Origin: Crossaster papposus
Taxonomy: Eukaryota > Echinodermata > Asteroidea > Velatida > Solasteridae
DNA length: 64,000 nt
NCBI GenBank assembly: GCA_037893245.1
Contig: JBAIAA010000117.1
Span: forward strand, 1,550,001-1,614,000
Reading direction: 5' to 3'
Shown: positions 1,556 to 19,440 of the stretch, in pieces
How positions within the stretch are numbered: position 1 is the stretch's first letter
How the letters are laid out: each line of letters begins with the position of its first letter
Notes under the pieces: model-generated
The model's input: only the letters and a program-made list of their open reading frames with translations
Told to the model about the DNA's origin: nothing
The model's database searches: none
Made by a program: the position numbers and the translations under genes

Positions 1556-1582
1556 ACGATTTTTTCACTAAGCCACCGGACT

Positions 1583-4095
1583 ATTACATTACTGGTCGAT
1601 TTTATTACATTACTGGTCGATTTTATTACATTACTGGTCGATTTTATTACATTACTGGGGTCGATTTTATTACATTACTGGGGTCGATTTTATTACATTA
1701 CTGGTCGATTTTATTACATTACTGGTCGATTTTATTACATTACTGGTCGATTTTATTACATTACTGGTCGATTTTATTACATTACTGGTCGATTTTATTA
1801 CATTACTGGTCGATTTTATTACATTACTGGTCGATTTTATTACATTACTGGGGTCGATTTTATTACATTACTGGTCGATTTTATTATATTACTGGTCGAT
1901 TTTATTACATTACTGGTCGTTTTTATTACATTACTGGTCGATTTTATTACATTACTGGTCGATTTTATTACATTACTGGTCGATTTTATTACATTACTGG
2001 TCGATTTTATTACATTACTGGTCGATTTTATTACATTACTGGTCGATTTTATTACATTACTGGGGTCGATTTTATTACATTACTGGTCGATTTTATTATA
2101 TTACTGGTCGATTTTATTACATTACTGGTCGATTTTATTACATTACTGGTCGATTTTATTACATTACTGGTCGATTTTATTACATTACTGGTCGATTTTA
2201 TTACATTACTGGTCGATTTTATTACATTACTGGGGTCGATTTTATTACATTACTGGTCGATTTTATTATATTACTGGTCGATTTTATTACATTACTGGTC
2301 GATTTTATTACATTACTGGTCGATTTTATTACATTACTGGTCGATTTTATTACATTACTGGTCGATTTTATTACATTACTGGTCGATTTTATTACATTAC
2401 TGGTCGATTTTATTACATTACTGGTCGATTTTATTACATTACTGGGGTCGATTTTATTACATTACTGGGGTCGATTTTATTACATTACTGGTCGATTTTA
2501 TTACATTACTGGTCGATTTTATTACATTACCGGGGTCGATTTTATTACATTACTGGTCGATTTTATTACATTACTGGTCGATTTTATTACATTACTGGTC
2601 GATTTTATTACATTACTGGTCGATTTTATTACATTACTGGTCGATTTTATTACATTACTGGTCGATTTTATTACATTACTGGGGTCGATTTTATTACATT
2701 ACTGGGGTCGATTTTATTACATTACTGGTCGATTTTATTACATTACTGGTCGATTTTATTACATTACTGGTCGATTTTATTACATTACTGGTCGATTTTA
2801 TTACATTACTGGTCGATTTTATTACATTACTGGGGTCGATTTTATTACATTACTGGGGTCGATTTTATTACATTACTGGTCGATTTTATTACATTACTGG
2901 TCGATTTTATTACATTACTGGTCGATTTTATTACATTACTGGTCGATTTTATTACATTACTGGTCGATTTTATTACATTACTGGTCGATTTTATTACATT
3001 ACTGGTCGATTTTATTACATTACTGGTCGATTTTATTACATTACTGGTCGATTTTATTACATTACTGGTCGATTTTATTACATTACTGGGGTCGATTTTA
3101 TTACATTACTGGGGTCGATTTTATTACATTACTGGTCGATTTTATTACATTACTGGTCGATTTTATTACATTACTGGTCGATTTTATTACATTACTGGTC
3201 GATTTTATTACATTACTGGTCGATTTTATTACATTACTGGGGTCGATTTTATTACATTACTGGGGTCGATTTTATTACATTACTGGTCGATTTTATTACA
3301 TTACTGGTCGATTTTATTACATTACTGGTCGATTTTATTACATTACTGGTCGATTTTATTACATTACTGGTCGATTTTATTACATTACTGGTCGATTTTA
3401 TTACATTACTGGTCGATTTTATTACATTACTGGTCGATTTTATTACATTACTGGTCGATTTTATTACATTACTGGTCGATTTTATTACATTACTGGGGTC
3501 GATTTTATTACATTACTGGGGTCGATTTTATTACATTACTGGTCGATTTTATTACATTACTGGTCGATTTTATTACATTACTGGTCGATTTTATTACATT
3601 ACTGGTCGATTTTATTACATTACTGGTCGATTTTATTACATTACTGGTCGATTTTATTACATTACTGGGGTCGATTTTATTACATTACTGGGGTCGATTT
3701 TATTACATTACTGGTCGATTTTATTACATTACTGGTCGATTTTATTACATTACTGGTCGATTTTATTACATTACTGGTCGATTTTATTACATTACTGGTC
3801 GATTTTATTACATTACTGGTCGATTTTATTACATTACTGGTCGATTTTATTACATTACTGGTCGATTTTATTACATTACTGGTCGATTTTATTACATTAC
3901 TGGTCGATTTTATTACATTACTGGGGTCGATTTTATTACATTACTGGTCGATTTTATTATATTACTGGTCGATTTTATTACATTACTGGTCGATTTTATT
4001 ACATTACTGGTCGATTTTATTACATTACTGGGGTCGATTTTATTACATTACTGGTCGATTTTATTACATTACTGGTCCATTTTATTACATTACTG
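1583..4095. repeat. Minisatellite of 21-bp and 23-bp units, about 117 copies
   Basis: The 21-bp unit reads GGTCGATTTTATTACATTAC plus T. The 23-bp variant has GGGG instead of GG before TCG. I count 22 of the long units, starting at 1657, 1680, 1850, 2062, 2232, 2444, 2467, 2532, 2681, 2704, 2832, 2855, 3088, 3111, 3239, 3262, 3495, 3518, 3667, 3690, 3923 and 4030. All spacings equal 23 plus a whole number of 21s. The unit has no stop codon in any plus-strand frame, so an 877-codon open frame (1504-4137) runs through it. That frame switches among three heptapeptide repeats whenever a 23-bp unit occurs, so I do not call it a gene. Confidence 0.95.
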
Positions 4096-4410: not shown

Positions 4411-4518
4411 GTAAGTTTTTTAGTACATGCAATTCAGAATTGTAATTTATAAATTTTGCCTTTTGAGCCTGAATATACATGTAATCTATCGCATCAAACA
4501 AAAATATTTCTCTTACAG

Positions 4519-6841
4519 GTATGAGTCTCTGACCTGGCATGATGGTGTGATCCCAGATAATGAAGTGTGGATCAAAGTTGGAGGAGATAAAGGAGGCAAA
4601 TCCTTTAAAATGTCCTTCCAAATAGTGAACACACATCACCCCAATTCTTTGAAAAACACTGTTTGTTTTGCTTGTTTTGAGGCCAACGACTCAATTGTGA
4701 ATCTTCAATCAGTTCTGCCACCCGTTCTGGAACAAGTGTCTCAACTTAATGGCCAAAAGTGGAGGTAAAATAAATATTTGATAACAAATATGATACATGT
4801 GTAATACATTTTAAAATGATACTTATTACCTGTATTGCATCATGATTGTGCCTTTACAATTTTGTTTCTTTTTACAGAGACAAAACTTTCAGACTTTTCC
4901 TTTTTGGGGACTATGAGTTGTTAACCAAGATGTATGGCATATGCAGCTGCAATGGTAACCAAACTGGATATTATTACATGTTCATTAATTATGCCAGAAA
5001 ACAATTACAGACAAATACTATTTACACAAGTATGCCACTTTCACTGTACATGTACCAAATCCAAACTGTTGTGTTATTTTGTTTCTTTATAGCAAGATAT
5101 TGCTGTCTATATTGCACAACATCCAAGGACAACATGAAACTCCCCATCATTGAGAGAGCAGCAGCCACTCCACGCACCCTACAGTCAATTCTGAAATCAT
5201 ACAAGGCATATGAAGCAGATGGCTCTGTGAAAGCTCGGTCCAAGGATGTTTCACATAGCATCATAGCAAAGCCAATTATTGACATTGCAATTGACCATGT
5301 AAGTTCAAATAAAAACAAAAGCAATTAACAAAAAAATCTGGGGATCTAAGTAAATATTTGCACACCTTGAAAAGATACATGTGCAATGAAATAAGTGACA
5401 GCTCTGCTGAATAAATTGCAAATAAAAACACCATTTGTTTGTATCAACAACGGTTAATTCATATTTACATTACATTTACACTTGTATTGTTTAGGTGGTT
5501 CTCACAAGCCTTCACATATCTCTTGGAGTTTACAAGAAGCTCTTTGATATGTATGAAGCAAGATGCCACATGCTTGATCTCAAGATATTTGAATTGCTAA
5601 TCAGGCATGCGGATGAAGATGAGGTAGAATTAAGTACCACAAATTTTGACCAGAAGGTTGCACGAGAGTTCAACCGTCAAAAACAGCTTGCCAATGACAA
5701 AGCCATCAAGCAAGATGAACTTGAGCAGATTGAAGAAGAGTTGCCCCTTCACTTCCTCCAACACAACCTTCAACATGCTGATAACAAGTTTCAGCAGATG
5801 GCCAATAGGGCTTTCAATCTTCGTCATGAACTTCAGCAAGTGGTAAGAATTTCCATGTACATTTTAATGTTGATCGCGCTGCACTATTGGTTGATTCTGT
5901 ACGATACCTCAGTCCTTTATTACTTACCTTTTTAAGAGCCAAACACATGTTATTATACTTTACATTTTTGAGTCACAGGACAAAGACAAACCAGATCTAC
6001 CGATTGGTGCTGGTCCAGTAGCTGGTAGCCTTGATGTGGTATTGAAGAGGCATCATGTTGAACGGCAAGCGTACCATGGAAAAGCCTTCGTTGGTAACCA
6101 TGTTCACAAATGTTGTCAGGTAAACCTACACAACCGGCATTTTCGTTTTGACAAACATTCACTTTTTTCAATTGCATACAATTGAGGAAGTGTATCCCTT
6201 TCATTTGTTTTTCCAACAGATTCAAGTCATCTCTGATCTCACAAGCGAACCACGTAGAATTGTCCAGAATATGTCCTACGATGATATTCCATTGAAACGT
6301 CAGCAAGATTTCGTCCGTGAAGCGGCTTCGATTGGGTCCAAGTTTGAGGATATTTTCCTCAAATTTGCTGACACACATTTTGCGATTAACCATGCGAAGG
6401 CTTTATCTCCTGATGATTTGAAATGCATTGGTAATTACTCAATTTCTTTTCATTTTGTTGTGAAGTATGAATATTAAATCCAGTCAAGAGTAATATACAT
6501 TTCTATTCCTCGCCACAGATACGTGTATCAAGGTCTTCATGGCATCTTACCGAGACAGTTTCCCTGAATCCAGCATCACTCCCAAGATGCACTTATTGGA
6601 GAATGATGCAGTAGAACAGCTGTCGAGGTTTGGTGTTGGATTTGGCCTTCTCAACGAGCAAGGGGGAGAGCTAATACACACCGAATTTAACAGAACAGGT
6701 TGTGTTGTACATAGAATGCGGGATGATTTGAAGCGTCTCATGACGACGATGCTACGTCACCACTTGTCAACCACTCCAGAAGTACAAGCCAAAGTGATCA
6801 CATGTGAAAAAAAATCGAAAAAAACAAACATTGAAGAATAA
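4519..6841 (+). CDS. DDE-transposase-like protein, seven further exons (multi-exon gene, 5' end broken)
   Basis: Exons 4519-4764, 4878-4954, 5093-5298, 5495-5842, 5979-6119, 6220-6430 and 6519-6841 have AG/GT borders and join without a frame break into about 517 residues ending at TAA. In order, the protein shows WIKVGGDKGGKSFKM (Asp codon 4586-4588), then FLFGDYELLTKMYG (Asp 4909-4911) followed by cysteine pairs (CSC, CCLYC). Next come SLHISLGVYKKLF, a charged likely coiled coil (5600-5840), a YHGKAFVGNH block (~6060-6115), and finally KMHLLEND with NEQGGE (Glu 6656-6658 and 6668-6670). Family knowledge: I recognise this set of motifs from uncharacterised multi-copy proteins of marine invertebrates. 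Inference: two Asp, a Cys-rich insert and a late Glu suggest an RNase H-fold DDE transposase, with a loose likeness to RAG1/Transib. The superfamily is not settled. Exon structure is solid; function is not. No terminal repeats were found. Confidence 0.6.
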
Positions 6842-8220: not shown

Positions 8221-8507
8221 AAACACTAGTCAAAGGCTGATTGTATGTGCAAGTTTGTACGTACACATGTACACGCATACATGTAGACACTACCACACTG
8301 AGGGCATACTTGTCATTCTATCCAATGGAGGACACTTGAGTGTGTGTGAATTACACCTATCAAAGTGAGGACACGACACTAAAATGCTGGTTGTCCATTG
8401 GTTTCATATTGATGTGCATTCTAAAGTCATCATTGCGATTGCAAATTCTAAATAGTCAAGTACTCTGACGCATCCGTACATGTATGTGAACTGACGAAAC
8501 ACCCTGC

Positions 8508-10854
8508 TTAGCTTTGATGAAGCTTCATTTTGTTCCGACAAAAGTCTTTGATGTTCCTCCAGCTTCGTGTCTGCAGTGCCACAAGACAGGATGTTTCGAT
8601 GTCTCGTTTGCCAGGAAGCTTCTTCAGCAGAAAGAATTTCTGCAAACCCTTCGTAACGTCTCCCTTCTCCTCGGCAGTCCAGGGACGACGTTTCACTCGT
8701 CTCGAGTTGTTCAGAGATGCCAGACTTCCAGATGGAACACTGATAGGAGCCTGTCGAGTACCTAATGTCAAATAGGAAACAAGTCGATATAAAACACAGA
8801 TATTTATGCACTTTTAATTCAGACAGCCCGATAGCCAGATGAACAAACAAATGGACAGACAGACAATTGTTTTTTTAAAGACAGCCCGACTTAACCAGTT
8901 TGCGCCGGGATTATTTTAACATCGCCGAGCCCACGGGCGGGATTATTTTCAACGAAACTCGATCCGAAGCGGGTTCAGGCTGATAGTGCCGGGAAGCACA
9001 CCCACGCATTTCCGGCCTTGCGCGCTGCTGACATACATTTCCGAACTTGAACTTGGCGTGTTTATGCGTCATCCGTTTTGAATTTTGGAATTTTTTTGCG
9101 TTTATATACGTCATCCGGCGCGAACTGGTTAAAATACAGACACATAAAAGCCTAAACTTACTGTTTTCACTGGGCACATCACAGGAATTGTCACTGCTGT
9201 TATCGCTGTCCTCGTCACTAGTGAAGCCTTCTGCAAGTCACAAAGAGCAGTTTTTGTTAGATTAATGCACACATACCTGACAGTTGGTTGTTGTCCTGCA
9301 TGTAAATTCAGAAAAGTGGACTCAACTCTTGTCAAATTTCTGTGGTCTGTTTCTTTCTATTTTTTTTTATTTCTCTTTCTTGTTCTGTAATGCAGGAGCA
9401 ATAGCAAAAGAAATGCACAAAAACATGTATACCATTTGTTATCATATATTGTGAACTGATAACAAAATGTTATTTCTTGCATTTCTTTCGCTGTTGAAGA
9501 TGTATTAGTGAATAGTAATTACTGATCAAGTATTTTTCAACAAAAGCAATAATTAATGTCTTTCTTTTGCTGTTGAGTAAATAATTTAAAACAACTGTGT
9601 CCTTACCACCAGTGACATGCAGTTCATCCAGGGATTTGCCCTGCTGGGAAGGCAAGTTTCCCCTCTCCAAGCTGAGAAAAAGCCTAGAAAGTTTGGTGAC
9701 CCTCTGCACAGTATCTGGCAACTGGTAGTATTCACGATGGACACGCAAATCATGACCCATGAAGTTTGCAAGTGTTTCAAGTTGATGTTCCTTCAAGGCA
9801 AGAATTTGCGATGCGGTTGCCACGTGCTTACGAAGTTTGTAGACCGGATGCTGGCAGCATTGTCAAGGCCCGCCATGTCTGCGTACAATCTTATACAGTC
9901 ACATCCTCTTATATGACCTGTACCTCCATAAGAACATCGTGCAAACAAGTAGGTGTTGTCGTGGGCGACTCCAGCTTCATTTCTCTTCGCAATCAGAGCA
10001 CTCAACCACGCCACCACCTCATTGCTGAGAAGCACAGGAACAGTTCGACCCCTCTTGCCAACTATTTCGACAACTCTGAACATCTTGCACAGATGCCGTT
10101 CAAGATCAGTCAGCAGGCATTCCCCGTTGACACTAGCTGTTGTGTGCTTCTGAAAGTCTTCTAGTTTCATCTTTGATACCTCCCCTTGCCTTCTGCGGTT
10201 GAACATAATAAGGTGGCACAGTGCGACTTCATTCAATCTCTTCCAAGCTGGTCCAATTTGTTCGCCCCGAGCATCCTGGACAAGTTCCACTTCCCTGTTG
10301 CCAGCTTCATGGAGGAACGCCGACATTTTCACAACATCAGCATTTGTCGGCAGAATTTTAGGTTTGTTGCGCTTTTCTTGGTACAGTGTTCGGTGTGCAT
10401 GGGTGGATACACGGTCTCGCCAGGTCAGTTCGCACAACTGCAGAAATTCTTCAGCGTGTTGCGCTTTTTGCTTTTGGCCAGACTCTAGAGCATTTCCTTT
10501 AAGTATGAGTGCACACTTCTTGATGGAATGTCCAATCTTTAAAGCTAGAGACGGAACATCATACAACTGCTTGTCTTCATTAAAGCCAGCAATACCGTGA
10601 ACAGCCTAGATGATATCATTCAGGTAGTGGGGGTGGACAAATAATTCAAGTGATGCATTTGGCTGGTGTGTATTCTTGCGGAGTTGTATGACAAGACGAC
10701 CCAATTCCCGTATCTTGTTTCGGATGTAGCCATGTTGATCTACATCGTGCCCGAGTTTCGCGTATTCCCGCTTGGCTACTTCCACAATCAAAGTGTCATT
10801 CTTGGCCAGCAGAGTCACCTCATCTCTCTTCATCGGAATAAGAACCTGGTTCAA
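8508..10854 (-). pseudogene. Crypton-type tyrosine recombinase, three exons, two inactivating lesions
   Basis: Minus-strand exons: exon 1 10854-9607, exon 2 9230-9162, exon 3 8761-8508. All borders are AG/GT and the phases agree. Exon 1 carries the catalytic core: FNRRRQGEVSKM (first Arg, ~10180-10200), VGKRGRTVPVLL (likely Lys hairpin), LRKHVAT (box II), and GHDLRVHREYYQLP with the presumed Tyr nucleophile. Exon 2 is a short acidic Ser/Asp linker. Exon 3 holds KRRPWTAEEKGDV...PGKRDIE...RSWRNIK, a tail I know from marine-invertebrate Crypton-like proteins. Lesions: TAG at 10606-10608 between NDII and AVHGI, probably from CAG, and a missing nucleotide at about 9839-9840 splitting SIRST from KLRKH. 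Cryptons recombine DNA through a phosphotyrosine link and lack the terminal inverted repeats of DDE elements. Exon 1 start rests on the acceptor CTTTCCAG|TTG. This copy is probably inactive; a host-domesticated gene with assembly errors is the alternative. Confidence 0.8.
8891..9132. mobile_element. TTAA-flanked piggyBac-like MITE inside the recombinase intron
   Basis: The left end reads TTAACCAGTTTGCGCCGG. The right end, as reverse complement, reads TTAACCAGTTCGCGCCGG, matching at 17 of 18 positions. If TTAA is the target-site duplication, as in piggyBac elements, the insert is about 234-238 bp with ~14-bp terminal inverted repeats starting CCAG. CGTCATCCG-type words repeat near the right end. 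There is no coding capacity. It lies in intron 2 of the Crypton-like gene (between 8762 and 9161), so it would be spliced out and need not affect the protein. Confidence 0.75.
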
Positions 10855-11314
10855 CTGGAAAGACACACCGACAGGTGGAGGGCTTTGAAAAAAACACTTG
10901 ATTTATAAATTTGTTTCTGGCTTCTGGGCACCCAGAGTGAATATTTGATAGGGTTCAGAAAACAAGTTCACTAATGAATCAAAATCTTACTACTTTCTAT
11001 GTTGCCGGATGCAGAAAACGTTTATGATTTAGAACGAGTGGAAAAAAACCCAAACACCACTGTTATTTTCTTTAGGGGTAGACGCATATGCCTAATTGCC
11101 TCAGACTAGTTGCCCCTCTGAAGGAGAGGGAGTGGGGAGGAGGGGGAGTGGGGAGGGGTGGGAGGGGTGGGAGGGGTGGGTGTGGGGGGGGGGGTGAAGG
11201 GGGGGGGGGGTGCTTGCAAAAAACACTTGATTTATAAATTTGTTTCTGGCTTCTGGGCACCCAGAGTGAATATTTGATAGGGTTCTGAAAACAAGTTGAG
11301 TGTGTGTGAATTAC

Positions 11315-11443
11315 CTCATATGGAGGAGGGCAAACGGCAGGTCCTGTACCAGAATCAGCCTGTGGGCCATCATCCCAACTGGAACTGCTTTGTAGACTGT
11401 CTGAACCATTTAAGTGCGGACTTGAGAAAATCGTATGGGCCAC
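11315..11443 (-). CDS. Repeated 43-codon exon candidate, copy 1 (intact)
   Basis: On the minus strand, TTTCTATGCCAG precedes the segment and GTAATTC follows it, so it has both splice borders. Its 129 bp are open in one frame, starting AHTIFSSPHLNGSD after a Val and ending CPPPYE. It is rich in Ser, Pro and Asp, with no recognised domain. Length and ends make it a symmetric phase-0 exon that could splice in phase to the recombinase exon at 10854. Expression is not shown. Confidence 0.4.
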
Positions 11444-12675
11444 CTGGCATAGAAATCAAATCAAAATCACATTTAATTTTAAACAAATAACAATTTCTTT
11501 GGGGAGGGGTGGGAGGGCGAGGGGAGGGGTGGTTGTGGTGTGTGGGGGGGGGGGGTGAAGGGGGGGGATGGTGCTTGCAAAAAACACTTTATTTACAAAT
11601 TTGTTTCTGGCTTCTGGGCACCCAGAGTGAATATTTGATAGGGTTCAGAAAACAAGTTCACTGATGAATCAAAATCTTACTACTTTCTATGTTGCCGGAT
11701 GCAGAAAACGTTTATGATTTAGAACGAGTGGAAAAAACCCCAAACACCACTGTTATTTTCTTTAGGGGTAGACGCATATGCCTAATTGCCTCAGACTAGT
11801 TGCCCCTCTGAAGGAGAGGGAGTGGGGAGGAGGGGGAGTGGGGAGGGTTGGGAGGGGTGGGTGTGGGGGGGGGGGGGTGAAGGGGGGGAGGTGCTTGCAA
11901 AAAACACTTGATTTATAACAAAAAATCTGGCTTCTGGGCACCCAGAGTGAATATTTGATAGGGTTCAGAAAACAAGTTCACTAATGAATCAAAATCTTAC
12001 TACTTTCTATGTTGCCGGATGCAGAAAACGTTTATGATTTAGAACGAGTGGAAAAAACCCAAACACCACTGTTATTTTCTTTAGGGGTAGACGCATATGC
12101 CTAATTGCCTCAGACTAGTTGCCCCTCTGAAGGAGAGGGAGTGGGGAGGAGGGGGAGTGGGGAGGGGGAGGGGTGGGAGGGCGAGGGGAGGGGTGGGTGT
12201 GGTGGGGGGGGGGGGGGGGGGGGGGGGTGAAGGGGGGGGGGGGGGATGGTGCTTGCAAAAAACACTTTATTTACAAATTTGTTTCTGGCTTCTGGGCACC
12301 CAGAGTGAATATTTGATAGGGTTAAGAAAACAAGTTCACTAATGAATCAAAATCTTACTACTTTCTATGTTGCCGGATGCAGAAAACGTTTATGATTTAG
12401 AACGAGTGGAAAAAAACCCAAACACCACTGTTATTTTCTTTAGGGGTAGACGCATATGCCTAATTGCCTCAGACTAGTTGCCCCTCTGAAGGAGAGGGAG
12501 TGGGGAGGAGGGGGAGTGGGGAGGGGTGGGAGGGGTGGGTGTGGGGGGGGGGGGGGGGGGTGAAGGGGGGGTGCTTGCAAAAAACACTTGATTTATACAT
12601 TTGTTTCTGGCTTCTGGGCACCCAGAGTGAATATTTGATAGGGTTCTGAAAACAAGTTGAGTGTGTGTGAATTAC

Positions 12676-12804
12676 CTCATATGGAGGAGGGCAAACGGCA
12701 GGTCCTGTACCAGAATCAGCCTGTGGGCCATCATCCCAACTGGAACTGCTTTGTAGACTGTCTGAACCATTTAAGTGCGGACTTGAGAAAATCGTATGGG
12801 CCAC
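12676..12804 (-). CDS. Repeated 43-codon exon candidate, copy 2 (intact)
   Basis: The same 43-residue product as copy 1, with both splice borders preserved. It lies 1,361 bp from copy 1, which corresponds to an A-A-A-B block of the array. Confidence 0.4.
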
Positions 12805-14013
12805 CTGGCATAGAAATCAAATCAAAATCACATTTAATTTTAAACAAATAACAATTTCTTTGGGGAGGGGTGGGAGGGCGAGGGGAGGGGTGGTTGTGGT
12901 GTGTGGGGGGGGGGGGTGAAGGGGGGGGATGGTGCTTGCAAAAAACACTTTATTTACAAATTTGTTTCTGGCTTCTGGGCACCCAGAGTGAATATTTGAT
13001 AGGGTTCAGAAAACAAGTTCACTGATGAATCAAAATCTTACTACTTTCTATGTTGCCGGATGCAGAAAACGTTTATGATTTAGAACGAGTGGAAAAAACC
13101 CCAAACACCACTGTTATTTTCTTTAGGGGTAGACGCATATGCCTAATTGCCTCAGACTAGTTGCCCCTCTGAAGGAGAGGGAGTGGGGAGGAGGGGGAGT
13201 GGGGAGGGTTGGGAGGGGTGGGTGTGGGGGGGGGGGGTGAAGGGGGGGAGGTGCTTGCAAAAAACACTTGATTTATAACAAAAAATCTGGCTTCTGGGCA
13301 CCCAGAGTGAATATTTGATAGGGTTCAGAAAACAAGTTCACTAATGAATCAAAATCTTACTACTTTCTATGTTGCCGGATGCAGAAAACGTTTATGATTT
13401 AGAACGAGTGGAAAAAAACCCAAACACCACTGTTATTTTCTTTAGGGGTAGACGCATATGCCTAATTGCCTCAGACTAGTTGCCCCTCTGAAGGAGAGGG
13501 AGTGGGGAGGAGGGGGAGTGGGGAGGGGGAGGGGTGGGAGGGCGAGGGGAGGGGTGGGTGTGGTGGGGGGGGGTGAAGGGGGGGGGGGTGGTGCTTGCAA
13601 AAAACACTTTATTTACAAATTTGTTTCTGGCTTCTGGGCACCCAGAGTGAATATTTGATAGGGTTAAGAAAACAAGTTCACTAATGAATCAAAATCTTAC
13701 TACTTTCTATGTTGCCGGATGCAGAAAACGTTTATGATTTAGAACGAGTGGAAAAAAACCCAAACACCACTGTTATTTTCTTTAGGGGTAGACGCATATG
13801 CCTAATTGCCTCAGACTAGTTGCCCCTCTGAAGGAGAGGGAGTGGGGAGGAGGGGGAGTGGGGAGGGGTGGGAGGGGTGGGTGTGGGGGGGGGGGGGGTG
13901 AAGGGGGGGTGCTTGCAAAAAACACTTGATTTATACATTTGTTTCTGGCTTCTGGGCACCCAGAGTGAATATTTGATAGGGTTCTGAAAACAAGTTGAGT
14001 GTGTGTGAATTAC

Positions 14014-14142
14014 CTCCTATGGAGGAGGGCAAACGGCAGGTCCTGTACCAGAATCAGCCTGTGGGCCATCATCCCAACTGGAACTGCTTTGTAGACTGTC
14101 TGAACCATTTAAGTGCGGACTTGAGAAAATCGTATGGGCCAC
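14014..14142 (-). pseudogene. Repeated exon candidate, copy 3 (nonsense)
   Basis: A single change turns the penultimate codon TAT into TAG, so PPPYE becomes PPP-stop. The splice borders remain. Use of this copy in a transcript would truncate the protein. Confidence 0.4.
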
Positions 14143-14698
14143 CTGGCATAGAAATCAAATCAAAATCACATTTAATTTTAAACAAATAACAATTTATTTG
14201 GGGAGGGGTGGGAGGGCTAGGGGAGGGGTGGGTGTGGTGGGGTGGGGGGGGGGGGGGGGGGGGTGGTGCTTGCAAACAACACTTTATTTACAAATTTGTT
14301 TCTGGTTTCTGGGCACCCAGAGTGAATATTTGATAGGGTTCAGAAAACAAGTTCAATAATGAATCAAAATCTTACTACTTTCTATGTTGCCGGATGCAGA
14401 AAACATTTATGATTTAGAACGAGTGGAAAAAAACCCAAACACCACTGTTATTTTCTTTAGGGGTAGACGCATATGCCTAATTGCCTCAGACTAGTTGCCC
14501 CTCTGAAGGAGAGGGAGTGGGGAGGAGGGGGAGTGGGGAGGGGTGGGAGGGGTGTGTGTGGGGGGGGGGGGGGGGTGAAGGGGGGGGGGGGGGGTGCTTG
14601 CAAAAAACACTTGATTTATAAATTTGTTTCTGGCTTCTGGGCACCCAGAGTGAATATTTGATAGGGTTCTGAAAACAAGTTGAGTGTGTGTGAATTAC

Positions 14699-14827
14699 CT
14701 CATATGGAGGAGGGCAAACGGCAGGTCCTGTACCAGAATCAGCCTGTGGGCCATCATCCCAACTGGAACTGCTTTGTAGACTGTCTGAACCATTTAAGTG
14801 CGGACTTGAGAAAATCGTATGGGCCAC
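14699..14827 (-). CDS. Repeated 43-codon exon candidate, copy 4 (intact)
   Basis: Identical product to copy 1 with both splice borders. The spacing of 685 bp from copy 3 corresponds to an A-B pair. Confidence 0.4.
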
Positions 14828-15364
14828 CTGGCATAGAAATCAAATCAAAATCACATTTAATTTTAAACAAATAAAAATTTCTTTGGGGAGGGGTGGGAGG
14901 GCGAGGGGAGGGGTGGGTGTGGTGGGGGGGGGGGGGGTGGTGCTTGCAAAAAACACTTTATTTACAAATTTGTTTATGGCTTCTGGGCACCCAGAGTGAA
15001 TATTTGATAGGGTTCAGAAAACAAGTTCACTGATGAATCAAAATCTTACTACTTTCTATGTTGCCGGATGCAGAAAACGTTTATGATTTAGAACGAGTGA
15101 AAAAAACCCCAAACACCACTGTTATTTTCTTTAGGGGTAGACGCATATGCCTAATTGCCTCAGACTAGTTGCCCCTCTGAAGGAGAGGGAGTGGGGAGGA
15201 GGGGGAGTGGGAAGGGGTGGGAGGGGTGGGTGTGGGGGGGGGGGTGAAGGGGGGGGGGGGTGCTTGCAAAAAACACTTGATTTATAAATTTGTTTCTGGC
15301 TTCTGGGCACCAAGAGTGAATATTTGATAGGGTTCTGAAAACAAGTTGAGTGTGTGTGAATTAC

Positions 15365-15493
15365 CTCATATGGAGGAAGGCAAACGGCAGGTCCTGTACC
15401 AGAATCAGCCTGTGGGCCATCATCCCAACTGGAACTGCTTTGTAGACTGTCTGAACCATTTAAGTGCGGACTTGAGAAAATCGTATGGGCCAC
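15365..15493 (-). CDS. Repeated 43-codon exon candidate, copy 5 (intact, Pro to Leu)
   Basis: Open throughout with both splice borders. It differs from copy 1 in the end motif, where CPPPYE reads CLPPYE. Confidence 0.4.
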
Positions 15494-16363
15494 CTGGCAT
15501 AGAAATCAAATCAAAATCACATTTAATTTTAAACAAATAACAATTTCTTTGGGGAGGGGTGGGAGGGCGAGGGGAGGGGTGGGTGTGGTGGGGGGGGGGG
15601 TGGTGCTTGCAAAAAAACACTTTATTTACAAATTTGTTTATGGCTTCTGGGCACCCAGAGTGAATATTTGATAGGGTTCAGAAAACAAGTTCACTGATGA
15701 ATCAAAATCTTACTACTTTCTATGTTGCCGGATGCAGAAAACGTTTATGATTTAGAACTAGTGGAAAAAAACCCAAACACCACTGTTATTTTCTTTAGGG
15801 GTAGACGCATATGCCTAATTGCCTCAGACTAGTTGCCCCTCTGAAGGAGAGGGAGTGGGGAGGAGGGGGAGTGGGGAGGGGTGGGAGGGGTGGGTGTGGG
15901 GGGGGGGTGAAGGGGGAGGGGGGGGGGGTGCTTGCAAAAAACACTTGATTTATAAATTTGTTTCTGGCTTCTGGGCACCCAGAGTGAATATTTGATAGGG
16001 TTCAGAAAACAAGTTCACTAATGAATCAAAATCTTACTACTTTCTATGTTGCCGGATGCAGAAAACGTTTATGATTTAGAACGAGTGGAAAAAACCCCAA
16101 ACACCACTGTTATTTTCTTTAGGGGTAGACGCATATGCCTAATTGCCTCAGACTAGTTGCCCCTCTGAAGGAGAGGGAGTGGGGAGGAGGGGGAGTGGGG
16201 AGGGGTGGGAGGGGTGGGAGGGGTGGGTGTGGGGGGGGGGGGGGTGAAGGGGGGGGGGGTGCTTGCAAAAAACACTTGATTTATAAATTTGTTTCTGGCT
16301 TCTGGGCACCCAGAGTGAATATTTGATAGGGTTCTGAAAACAAGTTGAGTGTGTGTGAATTAC

Positions 16364-16492
16364 CTAATATGGAGGAGGGCAAACGGCAGGTCCTGTACCA
16401 GAATCAGCCTGTGGGCCATCATCCCAACTGGAACTGCTTTGTAGACTGTCTGAACCATTTAAGTGCGGACTTGAGAAAATCGTATGGGCCAC
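16364..16492 (-). pseudogene. Repeated exon candidate, copy 6 (nonsense at last codon)
   Basis: The last codon GAG is TAG here (minus-strand ATATTAG before GTAATTC). The acceptor and the rest of the frame are preserved. Confidence 0.4.
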
Positions 16493-17047
16493 CTGGCATA
16501 GAAATCAAATCAAAATCACATTTAATTTTAATCAAATAACAATTTCTTTGTGGAGGGGTGGGAGGGCGAGGGGAGGGGTGGGTGTGGTGGGGGGGGGGGG
16601 GGGGGGGTGAAGGGGGGGGGGGATGGTGCTTGCAAAAAACACTTTATTTACAAATTAGTTTCTGGCTTCTGGGCACCCAGAGTGAATATTTGATAGGGTT
16701 CAGAAAACAAGTTCACTAATGAATCAAAATCTTACTACTTTCTATGTTGCCGGATGCAGAAAACGTTTATGATTTAGAACGAGTGGAAAAAAAACCAAAC
16801 ACCACTGTTATTTTCTTTAGGGGTAGACGCATATGCCTAATTGCCTCAGACTAGTTGCCCCTCTGAAGGAGAGGGAGTGGGGAGGAGGGGGAGTGGGGAG
16901 GGGTGGGAGGGGTGGGTATGGGGGGGGTGAAGGGGGGGGGGGGTGCTTGCAAAAAACACTTGATTTATAAATTTGTTTCTGGCTTCTGGGCACCCAGAGT
17001 GAATATTTGATAGGGTTCTGAAAACAAGTTGAGTGTGTGTGAATTAC

Positions 17048-17176
17048 CTCATATGGAGGAGGGCAAACGGCAGGTCCTGTACCAGAATCAGCCTGTGGGC
17101 CATAATCCCAACTGGAACTGCTTTGTAGACTGTCTGAACCATTTAAGTGCGGACTCAAGAAAATCGGATGGGCCAC
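17048..17176 (-). CDS. Repeated 43-codon exon candidate, copy 7 (intact, most diverged)
   Basis: Open with both splice borders. Substitutions include AHPIFLSP for AHTIFSSP and DYG for DDG. This is the outermost copy, at the array edge, which fits the usual pattern that edge units escape homogenisation. Confidence 0.4.
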
Positions 17177-17236
17177 CTGGCATAGAAATCAAATCAAAAT
17201 CACATTTAATTTTAAACAAATAACAATTTCTTTGGG

Positions 17237-17407
17237 TTATCTCTAAAATATACTATCTATTTTAACACCATCACAAGCAACAACATTCGCCCTTGATGTG
17301 CAACTTAACTGACGACATACCGGTATTTATCCTCTTCATAAAAAGATATGTAATTCAAATGAGAATTTGTGTCATGTGCATTCATTATATGACTTCTAAG
17401 ACTTCTA
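17237..17407. other. Unique spacer after the array
   Basis: Non-repetitive, AT-rich sequence with no open frame or motif that I can interpret. Confidence 0.5.
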
Positions 17408-17498
17408 AGGCACTTAGGGAGACACTAAAATGTCTCCCTAAGTGCCACTGTCTCCTTATTACCTAAAAACTTACGCTAGTTTGTCTCCCCAAGTGCCT
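17408..17498. repeat. Small inverted-repeat element with a perfect 16-bp hairpin
   Basis: GGCACTTAGGGAGACA (17409-17424), a 6-nt loop CTAAAA, then the perfect complement TGTCTCCCTAAGTGCC (17431-17446). A third copy, TGTCTCCCCAAGTGCCT, ends at 17498 and pairs with the first at 16 of 17 positions. The outer pair could be the terminal inverted repeats of a tiny (~90 bp) MITE. A small-RNA hairpin is possible but unsupported. Confidence 0.55.
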
Positions 17499-17969
17499 AT
17501 TTGGAAGAATTACGCATTTCATTTGTATTCTTCCTAACCTGTCTGTTGTTAATTAATGCATTCTATGGTAATTTTCTCACCAGGTGCTCAAATAGGCAGC
17601 GTGTCACACCATCAGTGTACCGGACGCAGTACTTTCCTGATAAGAAAGCCACAAATTCAACTAATTAAACTTTAAAGGGATTACATGCAATTGGGAGTGG
17701 AATATTGAAAAGTATTTGTTGTTTACAGATCATATATATTTTTGGTTCTGAAGGGGGGGGGGGGAGGAATCAAGTTTAGGAAAAATGGCATTGTTTATTT
17801 ACATGTGGTACATGTCATGGGGGATGTAAGAGGGTATACAGCTGTCTTAATTTATGTGTGACAAATGGGATTCTACATTATGGATTACATTTCTTACCTA
17901 CGGAACCCCTAATGGGACATATGACGAATAGTAATCACCGTGACAAAATAAATTTAGTTTTGTATTTCT
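17499..17969. other. Non-coding spacer with a poly-G run
   Basis: A run of 13 G lies near 17752-17764. Otherwise no gene, repeat or site stands out. Confidence 0.5.
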
Positions 17970-18135
17970 TGCCCACGAAATCATTTCGTGCCCATGAAAT
18001 AATTTCGTGCCCACGAAATCATTTCCCGTGCGCTCGAAAAAAATAATTTCATGAGCTCGAAATAATTTGTTTGCTCGAAATAATTTATTTTTTGTGCGCT
18101 TGAAATAATTTCCTGCGCTCGAAATCATTTTGTGC
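17970..18135. repeat. About eight degenerate ~19-bp repeats with palindromic GAAATNATTTC cores
   Basis: Units such as TGCCCACGAAATCATTTCG recur with spacings of 19-24 bp. Early units carry GCCCACGAAAT and later ones GCGCTCGAAAT. The core GAAATCATTTC is nearly self-complementary. The minus-strand open frame across it is a by-product of the repeat. Confidence 0.7.
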
Positions 18136-19440
18136 AATTGTTAGAAATCGGTTAAGTAAATATGTTTTACAGCACGGTCTTGACGCAAGGTTAACGTGAA
18201 CCCACAAATTACGAGGGCATTCCATTTGTTTTCGTCATATGTCCTTTTAGAGGCTCCGTACTTACCTTTGGTGAAGGAGATTATTACGGCAGGATACCAT
18301 GATGAATCCTTGAGGCCACAGTGCGATTACGTTCTCCCCTTCATGATGCTGGTGATTTGTCAAGGTTCCATCAAGACGACAACTTCGTTTCATGTTTGTT
18401 ATGGTAGTTCTGTCAGCCACACCTAGACTACACAACAATACAACAACAATATACCATTAAACTGATAATACAATTAAATATTAATAATTGTGGCTACTTA
18501 TTTGTTTTATTATTTATACAATAACTACAATTAACTATTTCTTGTTCGCACGGTGCTCAACAACTCATGCTTGCGTTGGCAAAATAAAGCAGTTAAATTT
18601 GGTTATAACTTCTATATTATTCTGAAATTAGGCATATTCACTTCCCATATCATCCTATAGACTAGAGTGAGAGATCGAGGCCATGACTCCAAATTACATT
18701 ACAACGTAAATTAGCACGTCATATATGTCATACTCTGCTACATTCATACTCATAGCGAGTAACATGCAAGCTTCCAAATACAATTGCTCTACTTACCATT
18801 TATTCCAGCTCCATGGTACACCTAGCTAGCTGCAAATGACCACGTCTTCGCATAAACTACAATATGCACTTAGGCCAAAACAACGTTATAATAGTTAAGA
18901 CATGTCTGGGCTAGTTTAACTAGAGACATGTAATGTACATGTATTAAATGTACATGTTTACATTTACGTCGTTGTCACACGCGCAACCAACGGAGGGCGC
19001 TATGCCATTCAGGGTAATCCCGTTTGCGGTTTTTTTGACGGGGTAAAACATGTGCATACTGCCTCACGTCAGGTCTTATGCGTCAACCGAGGACTCCTCC
19101 CAAACGCTTTGATATTTAACCAACAGTCAAAAACGGCCACGAAAGTGCCATTTTTCACAATATTTCATACCGAGGACGCGCTCGGTTTGCAAGGTGTCCT
19201 CAGTATGTGAGTGTGTACTTACATAAAAGCCCTACATTTGCGGTATTGACAGGTACATAGGCCTACACATGTACACGCGTCTGTGTGCAGGATTAATCGA
19301 ACGATGAATTTAACGTTGACAAATAGCAAGATAAAATCTGAAATATCACAAAACATCCCGCTGTCTTTTACCTTGTTTTATCCTGATTGTCTTGAATTAT
19401 GCTTCTTGTCAACCACTGCATTGCGATTGTTTTGGCAAAA
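18136..19440. other. Non-coding spacer before the large satellite
   Basis: No gene can be supported. There is a cluster of TGTACATGT words at 18936-18970 that are self-complementary, and a minus-strand donor-like AAAGGTAAGTAC near 18266 for which no convincing exon could be built. The sequence just before 19440 ends in GGCAAAAAGCCCAG, where the satellite begins. Confidence 0.5.

Follow-up and report, generated by a model that had tools for sequence, protein, structure and literature searches.

A variable-number array of a symmetric, predicted exon in the recombinase gene of a Crypton-like transposon from the sea star Crossaster papposus

We analyzed a 64,000-nucleotide stretch of the Crossaster papposus genome (hereafter, the window; assembly GCA_037893245.1, contig JBAIAA010000117.1, positions 1,550,001 to 1,614,000) that carries on its minus strand a whole transposon copy of approximately 11.0 kb (8265..19257), with an array of 129-bp segments upstream of a tyrosine recombinase (YR). 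The element begins with TGTACCTGTCAATACC at its 5' end and finishes with ...GTGTACATGT at its 3' end, both ends having been set by comparing flanks across loci and by reading the sequence. All the features of the element described below lie on the minus strand. The array comprises seven segments (17048..17176, 16364..16492, 15365..15493, 14699..14827, 14014..14142, 12676..12804 and 11315..11443; copies 1 to 7, respectively), each with CTATGCCAG immediately in front of it and GTAATTC immediately behind. Five of the seven are open; the copies that start at 16492 and 14142 contain stops (the last codon of copy 2 and codon 42 of copy 5), and copy 1 is of a VAHPIFLSP type that differs from the amplified type. 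We thus re-found the seven segments of the original prediction, which had described them as 129 bp long with an acceptor and a donor, five of them intact.

The gene model comes from relatives of the element, namely 20 loci of approximately 9.9 kb and 3 more, compared together with the window. Loci L018 and L026 share flanks with L017 and L020, respectively, look like second haplotypes and were dropped from later counts, leaving 22. In the relatives, the gene reads in the order exon 1, exon 2, a number (n) of internal 129-nt exons, a large exon, and exons B and C. Exon 1 (127 nt) begins with ATG and exon 2 (56 nt) ends in phase 0; jointly, they encode MKRSSRLDGTLTNHQHHEGENVIALWPPDSSWYPAVIISFTKGKYCVRYTDGVTRCLFEHQ. 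The large exon (1909 nt in L030) opens with the same 43-codon module as the internal exons. In this last module, ...PPYE is followed by GAAGCCTCAAGT in place of GAG|GTAATTC, and there is no intron before the recombinase; a Cys/His-rich stretch (zinc-finger-like by eye) and then GVSFQLNQVLIPM lie between the two. The terminal module starts an open frame of 681 codons in L015, L017, L018, L021, L023, L029, L030 and L031, the last 45 or so codons of which fall in the next intron. Judged by this reading frame, the terminal module is certainly coding. The predicted protein has 804 + 43n residues, a total that depends on a hand-read exon B border (AACA|GTAAGT). Each module contributes 43 residues, is rich in serine and is probably disordered. 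A WW-domain ligand (PPPY) at the module end was considered as a family feature and rejected, as it is present in only 26 of 68 copies.

Decay is evident in several parts of the window copy. Exon 1 (18266..18393) carries the start codon and encodes the initial half of a Tudor-like domain, but its length has changed and its frame is shifted; exon 2 (17581..17636) encodes the second half of the domain and ends in phase 0. At 10881..10887, a deletion that removed the terminal module and the Cys/His-rich part has fused an array intron to the large exon, the remainder of which (9607..10886) encodes the recombinase with a stop at residue 82 (10608-10606; residues numbered from LNQV), a later frameshift and more stops past it. 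Further downstream are the acidic exon B (9162..9230; border adjusted one base by sequence reading), exon C (8508..8761; frame read by eye) with a basic C-terminal region and the stop codon and, in the 3' untranslated part, GTAATTCACACACACTCAA (8336..8354), the exact sequence with which the module introns begin. The window copy of the transposon is dead, and the original prediction had rightly called its recombinase broken, as the stop, frameshift and deletion attest. It had also found no upstream start exon; the relatives place the start exons at 18393-18266 and 17636-17581, upstream of the array. Nor is the splice it had proposed, from 11315 to a next exon at 10854 after CTTTCCAG, supported as the normal junction, for the supposed exon start falls inside one continuous coding exon in the relatives. 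Because the large exon is uninterrupted there, the CTTTCCAG that precedes 10854 is coding in the relatives, as is the presumed acceptor at 10855. Parts of the same region have been lost from L016 and L020 (with haplotype L026) at breakpoints unlike that of the window, so the array is prone to such losses. In L016, L020 and L026, the lost stretch starts within the array or within the terminal module and extends into the large exon.

The window array also carries variants of its own. Copies 2 to 7 all have CATACGATTTTCTCAAGTCCGCAC, which occurs six times in the whole assembly, every time here. Similarly, the 12 intron-unit cores of the array (spanning 11083..16854) share a window-private variant, CTAGTCTGAGG...; a search of the assembly with up to 3 mismatches returned 623 hits, of which the 12 exact ones are all in the window and the remaining 611 have 1-3 mismatches. 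From these private exon and intron variants, it follows that the array of the window expanded locally, starting with a single exon-intron unit. By sequence, the window copies are a local amplification within a broken element.

The best reading of the domains is that of a Crypton-like DNA transposon with Tudor-like and tyrosine-recombinase parts. The recombinase matched Pfam Phage_integrase weakly, under the curated cut-off (E = 7.8e-4, residues 481-589, 19.7 of 27.1 bits), and the motifs RRRQGEV, KLRKHVAT, MGHD and REYY could be read in it by eye. Compared with XerD, the first His of the HxxR box is replaced by Thr. Searches of PDB and NCBIfam with the recombinase gave 0 hits, a scan of viral contigs for its relatives gave four pattern matches, none of them confirmed, and single-sequence structure prediction was unusable (mean predicted local distance difference test score, pLDDT, of 36.1). 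The N-terminus encoded by exons 1 and 2 matched Agenet (3.3e-5), Tudor_3 (1.4e-4) and LBR_tudor (2.5e-4) in Pfam, all under the cut-offs, and the PHF20L1 Tudor in PDB (E = 1.8e-4). A SANT/Myb-like C-terminus was rejected, as it found no Pfam support. We saw no reverse transcriptase when the open reading frames (ORFs) of the whole element L015 (about 6 kb) were scanned with Pfam; among nine ORFs of at least 100 aa, seven had no match, the large exon matched YR only and the unscanned one lay outside the element. At the 5' end, TGTACATGT or a variant was present in 16 of 16 loci; at the 3' end, it was present in several copies, not all.

This gene structure recurs across the genome. On both strands of the 1.02-Gb genome and with up to 2 mismatches, the donor pattern of the internal exon was found at 657 places and the junction pattern of the terminal module at 399, against 0 genome-wide hits for the reversed control patterns, so the structure is not due to chance. 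Used as a DNA query, the final exon plus its intron yielded at least 175 matches and showed this structure at many sites. Exact patterns on contigs C7-C97, counted up to position C97:844175, where the internal-exon list ended, gave 0, 1, 2, 3, 4 and 6 internal copies in 4, 11, 16, 8, 3 and 1 of 43 terminal exons, respectively; for 15 of 100 internal exons, no terminal exon matching the exact pattern lay within range. Two of the four cases with n = 0 (C26 and C53) are true single-module elements: after exons 1 and 2 and the native intron 2, the next coding sequence is the module of the large exon. Of the other two, one lacks its upstream part through truncation, and the other does have an internal copy, which the exact pattern failed to detect. 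Among elements, n ranges from 0 to 7, the window copy being the one with n = 7, and it can differ between close sisters: L029 (n = 6) and L030 (n = 3) have 1 difference in 1911 nt of the large exon past the module. Hence, multiplication of an exon with its intron before a tyrosine recombinase, first proposed from the window alone, is borne out as a variable-number feature of the element family, and relatives of the recombinase do carry the 129-bp exon.

The borders and frame of the internal modules are those expected of exons. All 51 internal exons detected are exactly 129 nt long, have AG before and GT after, and begin and end in the same phase; the donor is GTAATT in every one of them. Retention of the introns would break the frame in 47 of 47 cases, and their lengths are spread evenly modulo 3 (16, 15 and 16). 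As anticipated in the original prediction, any copy number would keep the frame, the exon being symmetric (phase 0-0) and 129 nt throughout. Stops are absent from 19 of 19 internal exons in the seven elements whose large exon is open; in the other elements, 29 of 32 are open and 3 of 32 have stops. A looser BLAST listing that did not require the acceptor returned 60 modules in 21 loci, with CAG before every one. We infer from these borders that the internal exons would be spliced into the mRNA. What the recombinase gene of the transposon carries is a real, family-wide, frame-preserving array of predicted exons.

Several observations weigh against reading the modules as exons. Detection of the 51 exons required near-intact borders, biasing the intact-border counts upward, and loci were picked by array similarity, so array-poor elements are under-sampled. 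The donor (GAG|GTAATT) has no G at +5. In addition, the residues are without visible constraint: the ratio of nonsynonymous to synonymous polymorphism (pN/pS) was 0.97 for the internal exons (bootstrap 0.43-4.25), 0.92 for 29 distinct internal-exon sequences and 0.91 for the terminal modules; for the recombinase (codons 216-640, seven elements), it was 0.26 (0.12-0.51), so purifying selection is seen there. Variable sites are at least as frequent in the module (12 or 14 of 129) as in the pooled introns (58 of 1223), which are themselves uneven in informative sites (0.8 to 8.9 percent); informative sites are also commoner in the module than in the other coding parts (30 in 1673), with sites taken as independent. 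Purifying selection on the copies, a check suggested in the original prediction, was not seen, as pN/pS is about 1 with wide limits, and we discarded it as a claim for the module. Diversifying selection is not claimed either: sites are approximately twofold above the pooled introns, and pN/pS is not above 1. The pattern fits both a disordered spacer, in which length and frame matter and exact residues do not, and internal copies that are too young for constraint to show.

Unconstrained residues and a donor without the +5 G are also what would be expected if the array were a passenger. In that case, the internal modules would be pseudo-exons left out of the mRNA and splicing would be confined to exons 1 and 2 and the large exon, with the array growing as an intronic minisatellite and the open frames left over from the recent duplication of a coding module. 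The expansion of the window array in a broken element agrees with this explanation, and homogenization within elements could by itself hold frames open. Yet the 51 detected internal exons are all 129 nt while nearby intron pieces differ in length (modal length class, 44 of 53 for the 96-bp piece and 19 of 51 for the one that follows the donor), and the internal exons are open in 19 of 19 cases in intact elements. We consider the passenger explanation improbable, albeit the most serious of the alternatives, and give a probability of roughly 0.7 to a minisatellite-like array of a symmetric, predicted exon inside the transposon's own recombinase gene.

The array could instead act at the DNA level, perhaps serving as a promoter or enhancer with a variable number of units, its coding look being incidental. 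The variable-number tandem units in the 5' part of mouse L1 (PMC6454616, PMC9022269) provide a precedent. However, the array described here sits inside the gene, past two coding exons and outside the 5' untranslated region, and its terminal module is certainly coding, all of which makes a DNA role very unlikely. Least probable of all are copy numbers that are artefacts of a tandem repeat collapsed or expanded in assembly: G/C-rich tandem arrays are difficult to assemble and our counts come from the assembly alone, but the units within one array differ and carry locus-private variants, and the single-module elements have a clean native intron.

Units turn over rapidly within the array. The mean difference between internal exons was 0.013 within an element (59 pairs) and 0.047 between elements (1216 pairs); likewise, internal exons differed by 0.028 from their own terminal module (37 comparisons) and by 0.056 from those of others. 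At the level of the assembled copies, this demonstrates concerted evolution within elements. The tandem unit is approximately 690 bp and its inter-module intron consists of two units of approximately 320 bp, opening with 19 bases also present in the 3' untranslated part of the element. In most arrays, each module is preceded by 57 bp of intron 2. A longer intron-2 tail is kept before the last module too in L012, L024 and L039, a state that looks like an intermediate of the first duplication. In an unrooted FastTree phylogeny, whose alignment had three badly aligned rows (L024, L009 and L019), the n = 0 elements stood beside L012 and L011 (n = 1) with support of 0.88 and 0.75. The n = 0 elements are also more decayed (94.5-94.9 and 97.0-97.4 percent identity), which suggests that n = 0 is the ancestral state; array collapse could recreate it as well.

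A source for the intron units may lie outside the element. The 3' flank of L023, outside the transposon, has sequence similar to the intron unit (about 80-88 percent). Two other candidate sources, L038 and L039, proved to be transposon copies with n = 1 and were excluded; an outside source therefore rests on the L023 flank and the first repeat bases in the flank of L031. The L023 and L031 copies are inserted in the same repeat family, and that of L023 carries units like those of the array intron. In the order of steps that we favor, the first 129 nt of the large exon would have been duplicated once, together with the end of the preceding intron, and a foreign G/C-rich repeat between the copies would have supplied the 5' splice site. 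The outcome would be a symmetric phase 0-0 exon within a tandem unit of approximately 690 bp. Unequal exchange or conversion could then gain or lose whole units, rapidly because the intron is minisatellite-like, and the recombinase frame would survive every copy number because the exon is symmetric.

Symmetric exons are duplicated in tandem in host genes as well, for example in kringle, spectrin or titin repeats. As in those genes, an exon of the same phase is copied with its intron and no frame shift ensues; unlike them, the gene here belongs to a mobile element and the number changes fast between element copies. Mouse L1 has a 5' part with tandem units whose number varies (PMC6454616, PMC9022269). 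There too, the unit number differs between near-identical copies of a mobile element, but the monomers of L1 act as promoters and lie in a retrotransposon's 5' untranslated region, and the units here are a coding exon plus intron in a recombinase gene. Animal Cryptons are reported to lack both a C-terminal domain and terminal repeats (Kojima and Jurka, 2011; PMC3212892). The element resembles CryptonA as described there in having the gene of an animal-type DNA transposon with a tyrosine recombinase, and in that no reverse transcriptase was seen; it differs in its two coding exons past the recombinase, short and imprecise TGTACATGT ends, Tudor-like N-terminus and exon array. Given exons B and C and the TGTACATGT ends, we call it Crypton-like rather than file it as CryptonA. 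In the open literature, as far as its accessible texts go and with subscription journals and preprints not covered, we found no transposon with such a coding exon array.

The rest of the window holds other repeats and a gene-like region. Satellite DNA with a unit of approximately 66 bp (GCTTCAGCGCAGG...) occupies about 44.5 kb (19447-63995), starting approximately 190 bp past the 5' end of the transposon. A 21-bp tandem repeat (1582-4095) has about 118 copies with 97 percent matches. On the plus strand, 4424-4765 matched DUF1280 above the Pfam cut-off (E = 2.5e-17), and gene-like stretches extend to about 6841; the region appears to belong either to an independent gene of several exons or to a further mobile element.

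Within one genome, the many nearly identical copies of this gene make the birth and turnover of an exon array visible. Elements in the single-module, first-duplication and expanded states exist side by side, so the origin and multiplication of a symmetric exon can be traced step by step and dated. A more speculative proposal, which we regard as doubtful, is that the array is a fast length dial that would set the Tudor reader apart from the DNA-binding and catalytic parts by 1 to 8 modules, with selection among copies acting on n and minisatellite-like exchange outpacing point mutation. Should splicing of the internal exons be real, sister copies of a selfish element would make recombinases that differ in length by whole modules, and the effect of copy number on transposition would be directly testable.

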